Source: Halieaceae bacterium (GTDB lineage Bacteria > Pseudomonadota > Gammaproteobacteria > Pseudomonadales > Halieaceae). Taken from it: 40,791 bases of DNA. Where the stretch lies: NCBI GenBank assembly GCA_028282105.1, contig JANQIO010000211.1:1-40791 (forward strand), read 5' to 3'. The notes under the pieces were generated by a model. That model had not been told where the DNA came from. It saw nothing but the letters and a program-made list of their open reading frames with translations, and made no database searches. A program made the translations under genes and the position numbers. Positions 4,042-17,637 of the stretch are shown here, in pieces; within the stretch, counting starts at the first letter, position 1, and every line of letters begins with the position of its first letter.

Positions 4042-4925
4042 TGTCAAACAGCTTTTCAAAGATCGGTCTTATTGGTCGCGGCCGTCACGAGAGTTCGCGC
4101 GAAACCCTGCAGAGCCTGCTGGCGCTGCTGGCGGGCCGCGGCCTGCAGGCCTATATCGAGCCGCGCCTGGCCAAGCTTTGCCCGGACTGCGCCGCGACCG
4201 AGGCCGGCCGCGATGAGATCGGTGAACACTGCGACCTGGTGATTGTGGTAGGCGGCGACGGCAGCATGCTGAGCGCAGCGCGCACCATGGCGCGGCACAA
4301 CACACCGCTGCTCGGGGTCAACCGCGGTCGGCTGGGTTTCCTCACCGATATTTCCCCGGATGAGATCGACCTCAAGGTGGCAGAAGTGCTGGATGGCAAC
4401 TACGACGCGGAAGAACGCTTTCTGCTGGACGTGGTGGTGCTGCGGGATGACGAGGTGATTGGCCGTGCGGACGCGCTGAATGATGTGGTGGTGAACTCCG
4501 GCACTTCGGCGCAGATGATCGAGTTCGACCTGTATATTGACGACACCTTTGTCTACCGCCAGCGCGCTGACGGTCTGATTATATCGACCCCGACGGGCTC
4601 TACGGCCTACTCCTTGTCAGGCGGCGGTCCGATCATGCACCCCTCGCTGGACGCGCTGGTGCTGGTACCCATGTTCCCCCATACCCTCAGCAGCCGGCCG
4701 ATCGTGGTGGACGGCGACAGCCGGCTGCGACTGTCCATTGCCGAGGACAACAGCATCCACCCGCCGGTGACCTGCGATGGTCAGGTCAATATGACTGCGC
4801 GCCCTGGCGACACGGTGGAGGTGTACAAAAAGCCGCACCGCATGACGCTGATTCACCCGGTAGATCACAGCTTCTACGCCAGCTGCCGCGACAAGCTCCG
4901 CTGGGGTAACCCGCTGGTGGAGTGA
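4041..4925 (+). CDS. nadK: NAD kinase
   Basis: ATP-dependent NAD+ kinase, the cytoplasmic enzyme that makes NADP+. The product is 294 residues from the ATG at 4041, beginning MSNSFSKIGLIGR, the usual N-terminus and length. An in-frame ATG at 4020 would add seven residues and lies upstream of the TATAAT box. The catalytic GGDGS motif is at 71-75 with Asp73. The NAD-binding segment (ALNDVVV, then DGLIISTPTGSTAYSLSGGG) is intact, as is the C-terminal CDGQ element. The rhomboid gene follows after 46 bp and is probably read from the same transcript. Nothing looks damaged. Confidence 0.96.
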   Translation: MSNSFSKIGLIGRGRHESSRETLQSLLALLAGRGLQAYIEPRLAKLCPDCAATEAGRDEIGEHCDLVIVVGGDGSMLSAARTMARHNTPLLGVNRGRLGFLTDISPDEIDLKVAEVLDGNYDAEERFLLDVVVLRDDEVIGRADALNDVVVNSGTSAQMIEFDLYIDDTFVYRQRADGLIISTPTGSTAYSLSGGGPIMHPSLDALVLVPMFPHTLSSRPIVVDGDSRLRLSIAEDNSIHPPVTCDGQVNMTARPGDTVEVYKKPHRMTLIHPVDHSFYASCRDKLRWGNPLVE

Positions 4926-14692: not shown

Positions 14693-16867
14693 ATGAAAAC
14701 TCAACCCTGGTTCGCTTCATGCCCCCGCGGCCTCGAATCCCTGCTGCTCGATGAGCTGCGCCAGCTGGGTGCGGACAGCGCCCGCGAAACCGTCGCCGGC
14801 TGCAGCTTTGAGGCGCCGCTGGCCGTGGCCTATCGGGTCGCTCTGTGGAGTCGCCTGGCCAATCGCCTGTCGCTGTCCCTGGGCGACTATCCGCTGGCGG
14901 ACAATGGCGACGTCTACGCTGCGCTGGCTGAATTGTCCTGGGAGGAATGGCTGCCGGGAGGGTTGAGCTTCGTGGTGGATTTCCATGGCGAAAACCGGGC
15001 GATACGCAACACCCAGTTCGGCGCCCAACGGGTCAAGGACGCGATTGTCGATCGCTTCCGTAAACGTGGGCTGGCGCGGCCCTCGGTGGCTCGCAAGGGC
15101 GCCGATGTGCGCTTCCAGGCGCGACTGCATCGCGGCCGGGTGGCGCTGAGCCTCGATTTCGTTGGTGCCAGCCTGCACCAGCGCGGCTATCGGCGTGAAA
15201 CCGGCCGGGCGCCGTTGAAGGAAAACCTGGCGGCAGCCCTGTTGCTGCGCGCGGACTGGCCGGGGATAGCGGCCCGCGGCGGCAGCCTGATTGACCCGCT
15301 GTGTGGTTCCGGCACGCTGTTGATTGAGGCGGCCATGATGGTCGCGGATATTGCGCCGGGCCTCGCCCGCAAGCGCTGGGCTTTCGAAAAGCTACCCCTG
15401 CACAATCCCGACCAGTGGCGCGCCATACTCAGCGATGCCCGCGCTCGCGCCGAGCGCGGCAGAGCCCGGGAGCTGCCGGAAATACGCGGCTACGATGCCA
15501 GCCGGCCGGTGGTGGACAAGGCCCTGGGCAATATTCGCGAAGCGGGCCTTGAGGGTCTGGTGCGGGTGATATGCAAGCCGCTGGCGGCACTGAAGCGGCC
15601 CACCCACAAGCCGCTGACTCACGGGCTGGTGATCTCCAACCCGCCCTACGGTGAGCGCCTGGGCGATGTGGACAGCCTGCGCACGCTGTACCGCGATTGG
15701 GGTGACATCATGTTGCGGGAGTTCGAGGGCTGGTCGGCAGCACTGCTGACCAGCGAAAAGGAACTGGGGATGGCCACCGGGCTGCGCAGCCGCAAGCGTT
15801 ACAGCCTCTACAACGGCTCACTGGCCTGCACGCTGCTACTGTTCGACCTGGAGCCGGGCAGCCGCCTGCAGCCCCGTACGCCAGCGGAGTCCAGGCCCGC
15901 TGCGCCCGGGCATGGAGATATGTTTGCCAATCGCCTGCGCAAGAACCTCAAGCAGGCACGGCGCTGGGCCGAGCGCGAGGGCTATAGCTGCTACCGGGTC
16001 TACGATGCCGATATGCCCGAGTACGCGGTGGCCGTGGATCGCTACGATGGCCGTGTGCATGTATCCGAATACCAGGCGCCCCGTGGGGTGGACCCGGAGG
16101 CAGCGGAGCGGCGCATGGAGGAGATTCGCGCGGTACTGCCGGGCGTCATGGAAGTCCCCGAGAACCAGGTGTATTACAAACTGCGTCAGCGCCAGAAGGG
16201 CCGCAGCCAGTATCAGCGAAACGCCAGTGAAGGCGATGACTTTGAAGTGCGGGAGGGTCAGGCCCGGCTGCTGGTCAACCTGAGCGATTACCTGGACACC
16301 GGCCTGTTCCTCGATCACCGGCCCATGCGCCTGCGGGTGGCGGCGGAGGCGCGCGGCAAGGACGTACTCAATCTGTTCTGTTACACCGGCGCCGTGTCGG
16401 TGCATGCCGGCCTCGGCGGGGCGCGCTCCACCACCAGTGTCGACCTGTCGAATACCTATCTGGACTGGGCGCACCGCAACTTCGAGCTTAATGGGCTCAA
16501 TACTGAGCACCACCGGCTGCTGCGGGCGGACTGCCGAGACTGGCTGGTGCAGTGCAAGGACAGCTACGACCTGATTTTCCTGGACCCGCCGTCGTTCTCC
16601 AATTCCAAGCGGATGGAGGGCGATTTCGACGTGCAACGGGATCACCCGAGTCTGGTGCGAAGCTGTCTGGCCAGGCTGCGGCCCGGCGGGGTGCTGTATT
16701 TTTCCAACAACCTGCGCAGCTTTCGGCTCGACCCGGCGCTGGCGGAAGAGTTCGCGGCCACAGACATTACCGCCGAGACTATCGACTTCGATTTCCGCCG
16801 CCGACCGCGCATACACGCTTGCTGGCAGTTTATTGGAAAGGGCGAAGCCAGCCACGATGCCGCGTAG
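14693..16867 (+). CDS. rlmL: Bifunctional 23S rRNA methyltransferase RlmKL
   Basis: A 724-residue fusion of two SAM-dependent methyltransferases. The N-terminal part (THUMP domain about 45-155, then RlmL catalytic domain) would make m2G2445. The C-terminal RlmK part would make m7G2069 in 23S rRNA (E. coli numbering). Sequence support is NPPYGERLG at 316-324 (first catalytic loop), DPLCGSGTLLIEA as its SAM motif, then LNLFCYTGAVSVHAGLGG and LDPPSFSNSK (Asp631) in the second domain. Length matches the fused gammaproteobacterial form. An AT-rich upstream segment with TATAAA (14661-14666) may hold the promoter, but no good -35 is visible. Confidence 0.96.
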   Translation: MKTQPWFASCPRGLESLLLDELRQLGADSARETVAGCSFEAPLAVAYRVALWSRLANRLSLSLGDYPLADNGDVYAALAELSWEEWLPGGLSFVVDFHGENRAIRNTQFGAQRVKDAIVDRFRKRGLARPSVARKGADVRFQARLHRGRVALSLDFVGASLHQRGYRRETGRAPLKENLAAALLLRADWPGIAARGGSLIDPLCGSGTLLIEAAMMVADIAPGLARKRWAFEKLPLHNPDQWRAILSDARARAERGRARELPEIRGYDASRPVVDKALGNIREAGLEGLVRVICKPLAALKRPTHKPLTHGLVISNPPYGERLGDVDSLRTLYRDWGDIMLREFEGWSAALLTSEKELGMATGLRSRKRYSLYNGSLACTLLLFDLEPGSRLQPRTPAESRPAAPGHGDMFANRLRKNLKQARRWAEREGYSCYRVYDADMPEYAVAVDRYDGRVHVSEYQAPRGVDPEAAERRMEEIRAVLPGVMEVPENQVYYKLRQRQKGRSQYQRNASEGDDFEVREGQARLLVNLSDYLDTGLFLDHRPMRLRVAAEARGKDVLNLFCYTGAVSVHAGLGGARSTTSVDLSNTYLDWAHRNFELNGLNTEHHRLLRADCRDWLVQCKDSYDLIFLDPPSFSNSKRMEGDFDVQRDHPSLVRSCLARLRPGGVLYFSNNLRSFRLDPALAEEFAATDITAETIDFDFRRRPRIHACWQFIGKGEASHDAA

Positions 16868-16920
16868 CGCGAGAGCGCCCACTTACGCCCGGCGTCAAAT
16901 TTTATGCACACAGAGCGCGT

Positions 16921-16943
16921 AAACCCTTTTATTTAAGGGGTTT
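16921..16943 (+). terminator. Possible terminator hairpin after rlmKL
   Basis: AAACCCTTT (16921-16929) can pair with AAGGGGTTT (16935-16943) through 9 bp including one G-U, with a 5-nt loop. It lies 53 bp after the rlmKL stop. The tail after the stem is CCCGATG rather than a T run, so termination is only possible, not strongly supported. Confidence 0.3.
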
Positions 16944-17049
16944 CCCGATGTGCGGCTTCGAAAAACCCTATAAAAAAACGCTAAGTGACTGATTTTAAAT
17001 ATTTACCACTACTTAAAGTGAACTCTAGCTAGTTTTTGGTCGGCCATTT

Positions 17050-17078
17050 CCCTGGCGGCCCCTACGCTCCCGCCAGGG
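17050..17078. repeat. Perfect 9-bp inverted repeat in the rlmKL downstream spacer
   Basis: CCCTGGCGG (17050-17058) and CCGCCAGGG (17070-17078) are exact reverse complements separated by 11 bp. There is no T tract on either side that would make it a standard terminator. It ends 13 bp before the paired DnaA boxes. Confidence 0.75.
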
Positions 17079-17091
17079 ATCTGTCCACTAA

Positions 17092-17116
17092 CTTATCCAC
17101 AGATTTTGTGGATAAG
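17092..17116. promoter_or_regulatory. Inverted pair of perfect DnaA boxes
   Basis: TTATCCACA (17093-17101) and its reverse complement TGTGGATAA (17107-17115) lie 5 bp apart. With flanking bases they form a perfect 10-bp palindrome around GATTT. TTATCCACA is the strongest known DnaA-binding 9-mer. A third consensus match (TTATGCACA) is at 16902-16910. The site is 63 bp upstream of the flavodoxin-like gene. DnaA binding is predicted from sequence only. Confidence 0.55.
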
Positions 17117-17178
17117 GTTGTTGGCGATACCGCGCCGACCATGGCCAGGCTATCGGCCCCTGTGGTGAAATACGGGCC

Positions 17179-17637
17179 ATGCCGGCCTCCCTCCTGATCG
17201 TCTACCACTCCCAGAGCGGCGCCTCCTTTCGGCTGGCCGCCGCCGCCCGCCGCGGCGCGCTGTTGGAAGCCGATGTGAGCCTGGTCTGGCGCCGCGCCTG
17301 GGATGCCGGCATTGATGAACTGGCGGCCTGCAGCGGCTTGCTGCTGGTGGCGGCGGAGAATTCGGGCAGTCTGGCGGGCGGCATGAAGGACTTCCTGGAT
17401 CGCTGCTTTTACCCGGCCCAGCCGCTGCAGCTCAACCGGCCTTACGGACTGGTGGTGAGCTGCGGCAACGACGGTCGCAATACGGACAGCCAGGTGCAGC
17501 GCATTCTGCGCGGGGTGCCCATGAAACTGGTGGCGGAGCCACTGGTGTTGCGCGGTAAGCCCGGTCTTGAGCAGGATCGGGCCTGCGAAGAACTGGGCCA
17601 GGCCATGGCGGCCGGGCTGAGTATGGGGATTTACTGA
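17179..17637 (+). CDS. Flavodoxin-like FMN-dependent protein
   Basis: A 152-residue single-domain flavoprotein candidate. The N-terminal strand and phosphate-binding loop read LLIVYHSQSGAS (5-16), as in flavodoxins and NAD(P)H-dependent FMN reductases. AENSGSLAGGMKDFLDRCFY supplies the second FMN-contact loop and the helix typical of the flavodoxin_2/FMN_red group. GLVVSCGNDGRN forms the third loop. The likely role is a small cytoplasmic redox protein or quinone/FMN reductase; the partner is unknown. It is followed after 9 bp by the thioesterase gene, so the two are likely co-transcribed. Confidence 0.82.
   Translation: MPASLLIVYHSQSGASFRLAAAARRGALLEADVSLVWRRAWDAGIDELAACSGLLLVAAENSGSLAGGMKDFLDRCFYPAQPLQLNRPYGLVVSCGNDGRNTDSQVQRILRGVPMKLVAEPLVLRGKPGLEQDRACEELGQAMAAGLSMGIY

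Follow-up and report, generated by a model that had tools for sequence, protein, structure and literature searches.

The reactivation of DnaA by DNA sites has so far been worked out in E. coli. In both of the sites described there, DARS1 and DARS2, DnaA box I is reported to face opposite to boxes II and III with equal spacing (PMC5742627), and DnaA molecules placed head to head at DARS are described as losing their ADP (PMC8682772; PMC5742627). DARS2 in addition requires IHF, and moving the IHF site by 5 or 10 bp is reported to reduce activity (PMC4245941). DARS1 and DARS2 are both located between ori and ter (PMC5742627). Double DnaA boxes have been described in DARS1 and DARS2 (Stringer et al., 2024; PMC11317965), in agreement with the spacing measured below. 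The core of DARS2 is called conserved among the relatives of E. coli (PMC4245941), one published comparison spans seven E. coli-proximal species (PMC8682772), and a review states that many proteobacteria have DARS-like sequences (PMC10380432).

Here we describe an intergenic region from a member of the Halieaceae, located downstream of rlmKL within a window of 40,791 nucleotides (the window being the whole stretch of DNA that was analysed). Its three-box arrangement is not a chance occurrence; it is a rigidly spaced element found in many gammaproteobacteria. Genomes, contigs, and loci are referred to by G, C, and L numbers; the loci analysed are the places that were fetched, e.g., a second place in G025 lies outside the sample. 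Offsets (−n) give the number of bp before box II.

The DnaA boxes of the rlmKL spacer

A first-pass annotation of the window had reported three consensus DnaA boxes in this spacer, two of them as an inverted pair, and all three are present (Table 1). The A/T-rich stretch that it had placed between the first box and the pair was also recovered; GC content is 0.462 from the first box to the pair (16911–17092), and lower still in the tract given in Table 1, against 0.63 for the whole window. The pair has the 5-bp centre that had been described, but the "10-bp palindrome" had to be corrected, as each arm is a 9-bp box and the inverted repeat around the pair reaches an arm length of 15 nt with 87% complementarity. 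The weak analogue of box III occupies the position that box III has in the DARS, in the same orientation as box II, and matches five of the eight consensus letters. The nearest named relatives of the flanking RlmKL are from Halieaceae (Pseudohalioglobus, Parahaliea, Haliea) with 58–62% identity.

Table 1. Features of the candidate element and its flanking genes (coordinates within the window).
Feature	Position	Strand	Remarks
Whole DARS-like element (candidate)	16902..17115	+	214 bp, from upstream box to box I; 16902–17112 fits the layout pattern TTATNCACAN{160,184}TTATNCACANNNNNTGTGNA
Upstream DnaA box TTATGCACA	16902..16910	+	191 bp ahead of box II
AT-rich tract	16911..17040	.	GC 0.377
Putative IHF-type site AATCAGTCACTTA	16982..16994	-	1 mismatch to WATCAANNNNTTR; 111 bp ahead of box II
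Weak box III analogue CTGTCCACT	17081..17089	+	3 mismatches of 8; 3 bp from box II
DnaA box II TTATCCACA	17093..17101	+	Exact sequence match
Gap between boxes II and I	17102..17106	.	5 bp
DnaA box I TTATCCACA	17107..17115	-	Exact sequence match
Flanking gene rlmKL (23S rRNA methyltransferase)	14693..16867	+	Pfam UPF0020, RlmL_1st, THUMP, Methyltrans_SAM; conserved neighbour, outside the element
Flanking gene, NADPH-dependent FMN reductase-like	17179..17637	+	Pfam FMN_red; neighbour, outside the element

A GC-rich hairpin (CCCTGGCGG / CCGCCAGGG) is found at 17050–17078, between the IHF-type site and the pair, and is not classed as a terminator because it has no T-run. The only Rfam match in the spacer was a plant-virus pseudoknot with a score under the gathering threshold, and on this ground the spacer was rejected as an RNA element.

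The motif TTATNCACA occurs four times in the 40.8-kb window where 0.36 occurrences are expected, and none of 100 shuffles reached four, which bears out the earlier statement that a chance occurrence is unlikely. Throughout the genome (4.11 Mb in 247 contigs) the motif was found 36 times compared to 23 times for the reversed control pattern, i.e., the motif itself is only mildly enriched. What is rare is its arrangement: an exact inverted pair with a gap of up to 30 bp is found once in the genome, and not at all for the control pattern. Apart from this cluster, exact boxes come within about 200 bp of one another at just two places. On the contig that carries dnaA (C7) the distance between two boxes is 119 bp, and on C174 it is 189 bp; the C174 boxes represent a second copy of the layout. 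No second cluster of three boxes was present among the 36, and the spacer therefore comes out as an outlier in the genome-wide count that the annotation had suggested.

Comparison with DARS1, DARS2, and datA of E. coli

In E. coli MG1655 the boxes of DARS1 are located at 4108 (+), 4122 (−), and 4134 (−) of L169, and the core boxes of DARS2 at 2136 (+), 2150 (−), and 2162 (−) of L168, in both cases with gaps of 5 and 3 bp. The cores of DARS1 (bioD-uvrB) and DARS2 (mutH region) share their spacings with the window, i.e., 5 bp between the inverted boxes I and II and 3 bp between boxes II and III, box III of the window being weak. DARS2 is also intergenic. The suggestion that the spacer serves for the titration or reactivation of DnaA or for regulation, in the manner of datA or DARS, is supported, with core spacings that are those of DARS1 and DARS2 and not those of datA.

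Outside the core the similarity is less strict. Read in the orientation of the window, DARS2 has IHF matches at −83 and −99 and a consensus box at −197. This box, probably box V, is on the opposite strand relative to the upstream box of the window. The IHF site of the window is 12–28 bp off these two IHF matches, which are 3 bp apart as stated for IBS1–2 (PMC4245941). DARS2 also differs in its neighbour genes and in its chromosomal place. DARS1 has a box with one mismatch (L169:4331–4339, −) at a distance of 209 bp from its box II; in strand it agrees with the upstream box of the window. No IHF match with up to one mismatch was found in the 300 bp scanned (4000–4300 of L169), a scan that ends before this box. 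It is possible, judged from sequence, that the DARS2 box at 197 bp and the DARS1 box at 209 bp are counterparts of the upstream box. The double DnaA boxes described as 2–3 bp apart (PMC11317965) resemble boxes III and II of the window, which are 3 bp apart and in like orientation, but the window adds a facing inverted box and a distant partner, and its box III is weak.

A comparison with datA would lead to the opposite function, i.e., IHF would join ATP-DnaA on the upstream box to ATP-DnaA on the pair, with hydrolysis of ATP, and DnaA would be switched off. Along datA of E. coli, a (+) box is followed by a perfect (−) IHF site, by a (+) box 97 bp further on, and by an inverted (−) box, so that order and strands are those of the window and the IHF site stands between DnaA boxes in both. 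On the other hand, the inverted gap of datA is 3 bp compared to 5 bp in the window (and 8 bp in 33 of 38 rlmKL loci of the family), its distances are 162 and 97 bp compared to 191 and 111 bp, and its double box is found upstream of the IHF site and not at the pair. The gap of the DARS, in contrast, is that of the window, and among the matches listed it is found in 56 of the 67 places outside Halieaceae, with gaps of 3–12 bp allowed, a count read by eye from tables in which related genomes are not independent. We find a datA-like role rather unlikely; that it keeps some weight is due to the order of the sites, which resembles datA.

The second copy and the layout in the order and the class

The second copy in the genome of the window is located at G000:C174:16797–17008 (L022), so that there are two such sites at separate loci, the same count as in E. 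coli. It consists of TTATTCACA, followed 189 bp on by TTATCCACA-GATTC-TGTGGACAA, i.e., a pair with a 5-bp gap, and TTACCCACT is found 3 bp ahead of the pair. The copy is near genes for tRNA-Asp and tRNA-Val, L190 and L207 are likewise near tRNA genes, and a LysE-type gene that adjoins the copy is common to 14 loci (own included). A pair with a 5-bp gap (up to one mismatch) was found in 70 of 100 genomes of the family, while the reversed pattern occurred in 1 of 100. As judged by core sequence, most of the 5-bp pairs represent the second locus. In the set of 30 second-locus sites (29 fetched and our own, remaining places having been assigned from core sequence alone) a perfect DnaA box is present at −187 to −190 in all 30, and an IHF site (up to one mismatch) at −109 or −110 in 15. 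In the C174 copy itself there is no IHF match at −109 or −110, and the only match with one mismatch is on the other strand at −66.

Of 390 genomes of the order, 79 have a pair with a gap of 3–12 bp and 3 have the control, among the matches listed. The layout pattern, which consists of a box, 160–184 bp, box II, 5 bp, and most of box I, was built from Halieaceae and then applied elsewhere. It was matched in 109 of the 390 genomes of the order, which represent 22 of 47 families, and in 87 of 203 genomes of the class (own included), with none of the 390 and none of the 203 matching the reversed control, and none of the 203 matching when the box distance was reset to 134–163 bp (zero controls, family and copy counts, and gap and control counts of these scans were read by eye from tables). 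Exactly two copies were present in 34 class genomes and three copies in 3. The strict pattern was unmatched in 116 of the 203 class genomes and the scanned E. coli loci do not fit it; as the pattern demands consensus boxes, a genome without a match may still have the element.

The geometry was measured at 51 fetched sites (31 from the order and 20 from the class) with a search range of 169–193 bp. The distance between the upstream box and box II is 186–192 bp in 47 and 177–182 bp in 4 of these. Among the order sites, 30 of 31 have a box III (up to two mismatches) and 23 of 31 an IHF site near −110 (up to one mismatch); among the class sites the counts are 19 of 20 and 11 of 20, the other 9 being without an IHF match near −110. 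The neighbourhood is less constant. Within a family common neighbours occur, e.g., the six f8 loci (L160–L165) share one and the f47 loci fall into two groups, while loci from different families are mostly without common neighbours and the 5-bp pair adjoins other genes.

Two or three copies of the layout, close together or on the same contig, were seen in G052 (C61:41183–42737), G250 (C33:43073–44125), G268 (C1:2080009–2080515), and G300 (C12). The locus L166 (G382) is possibly an origin, with nine exact DnaA boxes in about 225 bp, two of which form an inverted pair 6 bp apart.

Pure titration, where high-affinity boxes merely soak up DnaA, would agree with the perfect consensus of the boxes and with the two or three copies in some genomes, some of them close together, and chromosomal titration of DnaA has been reported for E. 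coli (PMC12371093). However, titration alone needs no fixed spacing of 190 and 110 bp, no IHF site, and no inverted gap of 5 bp, all of which are conserved, and we regard it as quite improbable.

Conservation at the rlmKL locus of Halieaceae

The first-pass annotation had proposed conservation in relatives as a check, and the element was found to be kept in rlmKL loci of Halieaceae. In the family set, 38 rlmKL loci chosen for having the pair (L033–L053 and L218–L234, own included), the pair is located 228–410 bp past the last aligned residue of RlmKL in all 38. An upstream DnaA box (up to one mismatch, +) is present at −187 to −192 or −178 to −181 in 33 of the loci and missing in 5, and the IHF consensus (up to one mismatch, −) is present at −109 to −113 or −99 to −102 in 34, perfect in 22, and missing in 4. 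In 7,600 dinucleotide shuffles the frequency per sequence was 0.0043 for the box, 0.0058 for the IHF site, and 0.0008 for a perfect IHF site, with position windows that had been set after inspecting the loci. At about 179 and 189 bp, the two distance classes of the upstream box are roughly one helical turn apart, in keeping with a looped complex. Box III is found in 13 of the 38 loci with up to two mismatches and in all 38 with up to three.

The pair itself is less uniform. A 5-bp gap is confined to the four loci of the genus of the window plus L034, and the remaining 33 have 8 bp, i.e., the DARS spacing is not kept at the rlmKL locus in most of the family. A pair with an 8-bp gap was found in 50 of 100 family genomes compared to 1 of 100 for the control. 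Three of these places (L215–L217) have none of the five genes of the window that were tested, which makes them places other than the rlmKL locus, and they were left out of the set. Members of genus g12 (mostly small genomes) have no 5-bp pair, except G014, and no 8-bp pair (up to one mismatch); as G036 of this genus fits the layout pattern, divergence of the site instead of its loss is conceivable for some of g12. A half-box like box III is seen just past the pair on its far side in, e.g., L052 and L228, where it lengthens the palindrome. A symmetric 8-bp site with box III on both sides was considered and dropped, as box III is on the rlmKL side and the far-side half-box is clear in few loci.

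Among 80 named rlmKL loci, the named Halieaceae among them also standing outside the 38, a pair with up to two mismatches and a gap of 8 bp was found in 10 (L059–L062, L064–L066, L068, L069, and L072), which represent Halieaceae genera or gammaproteobacterial and proteobacterial MAGs of similar identity, L062 having two mismatches. There were two additional weak matches, L089 and L121, each with two mismatches and other gaps. Beyond Halieaceae and the similar MAGs, L121 was the only one of the 80 with a pair, a weak one, within the stretch visible, which is short (<600 bp) for L073 (269 bp), L115, and L119. With 10 of the 80 named loci having the 8-bp pair, an element of all rlmKL loci was rejected. 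Named Halieaceae without an exact pair have a degenerate or half site (L062, L063, L067, and L071) or single boxes (L089 and L118), and no boxes were seen in L070, L087, and L107.

The genes past the pair bear on whether DnaA acts from here on the transcription of the downstream FMN reductase or of rlmKL. DnaA does regulate promoters in E. coli (PMC11317965), and an FMN reductase match begins 43–178 bp after the pair on the same strand in 25 of the 38 loci (own included). In the other 13 loci, however, an oxidoreductase gene is convergent on the site, with 4–36 bp between its aligned end and the pair. The FMN reductase then lies more than 1.1 kb off (11 loci) or is not seen (2 loci), and still the element is retained, which makes it independent of the downstream gene. 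A simple sigma-70 scan gave no promoter, and in other families the 5-bp pair is found at other genes. Transcriptional control is very improbable, and a promoter of the next gene was rejected as unlikely given the convergent gene in 13 of 38 loci and the lack of a promoter-like site.

Chromosomal position

As the genome of the window is in 247 contigs, the position was read in relatives, where the terminus was located with a sequence pattern that we take to represent dif. In G035, a single contig, dnaA is at base 16, dif at 2,170,697, and the rlmKL site at 2,489,220, i.e., 319 kb from dif, with the second site at 2,761,071. The distance from the rlmKL site to dif is 225 kb in G020 and 200 kb in G033, and the site is ter-proximal in the relatives where it could be measured. 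Other families have sites near the origin: in G592 dnaA is at 22 and the sites at 171,513 and 2,827,820 of about 3.0 Mb, and in G595 dnaA is at 106 and the sites at 137,274 and 3,171,065 of about 3.2 Mb. Sites in G326 and G045 are 18–40 kb from dif. With positions near ori in some families and near dif in others, the chromosomal address is lineage-specific. No DnaA match was found within about 1.5 kb on each side of the order loci L139–L167 and L235–L264.

A replication origin or the relic of one, to which the combination of DnaA boxes, AT-rich DNA, and an IHF site as at oriC might point, is so improbable that it was rejected, as dnaA of this genome is on another contig (C7) with its own box-flanked AT-rich tract and the site in G035 is not at the origin end of the chromosome.

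Discussion

The core layout of the rlmKL spacer is that of the E. coli DARS, and the element is for this reason probably a switch that helps to time the copying of the chromosome. Judged from its sequence we consider it likely that the spacer is a DARS2-like site for the reactivation of DnaA. There are at least four observations against this. First, box III is weak in the window, with three mismatches of eight. Second, in relatives with a measurable position the site is close to ter, in contrast to the DARS of E. coli, which are located between ori and ter. Third, the upstream box is on the strand opposite to that of the distant consensus box of DARS2, and box, IHF site, and pair follow the order and strands of datA. 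Fourth, the gap is 8 bp in 33 of 38 loci, some Halieaceae are without the pair, and half of the second-locus sites have no IHF match near −110.

For a DARS2-like site, work on the E. coli DARS suggests the following course. ADP-DnaA would bind boxes I, II, and III, and since boxes I and II are in opposite orientation with 5 bp between them, the AAA+ domains of two DnaA molecules would be brought head to head. IHF would bend the AT-rich DNA about 110 bp upstream such that DnaA on the upstream box, 190 bp or about 18 helical turns away, could meet the core. ADP would then leave, and apo-DnaA would be released, take up ATP, and regain competence for initiation. DnaA is present in the genome of the window. 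A second, shorter DnaA-like frame of 237 aa (G000:C67), below the family cut-off, is probably Hda, a name that we infer.

It is conceivable, and we offer it tentatively, that the element is an old DnaA-IHF switch of the gammaproteobacteria as a class, with a fixed layout (a box, about 18 helical turns, and the core, with IHF in between), usually in one or two copies, the geometry being kept while the address shifts by family. DARS1 and DARS2 of E. coli would then be derived forms in which the distant box has been shifted or flipped, and in most genera of Halieaceae the core gap of the rlmKL copy would have widened to 8 bp, and its function may have changed as well, the 5-bp core being retained in the other copy. 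In the available text of the literature searched, we found no description of the layout of box, IHF site, and core outside enterics, or of the 8-bp form, and searches for rlmL with DnaA box, or for DARS with Pseudomonas, gave nothing on this layout. DARS sites as such are known, and within that literature the extended class-wide layout is apparently new.

Applied to 203 gammaproteobacterial genomes, the layout rule selects 87, each with one to three sites, and two controls give none. Such a rule makes it directly testable whether the recharging of ADP-DnaA is general in the class and whether the chromosomal place of the sites is important. Within a single family, the change from a 5-bp to an 8-bp gap provides a natural experiment on the head-to-head contact of DnaA.
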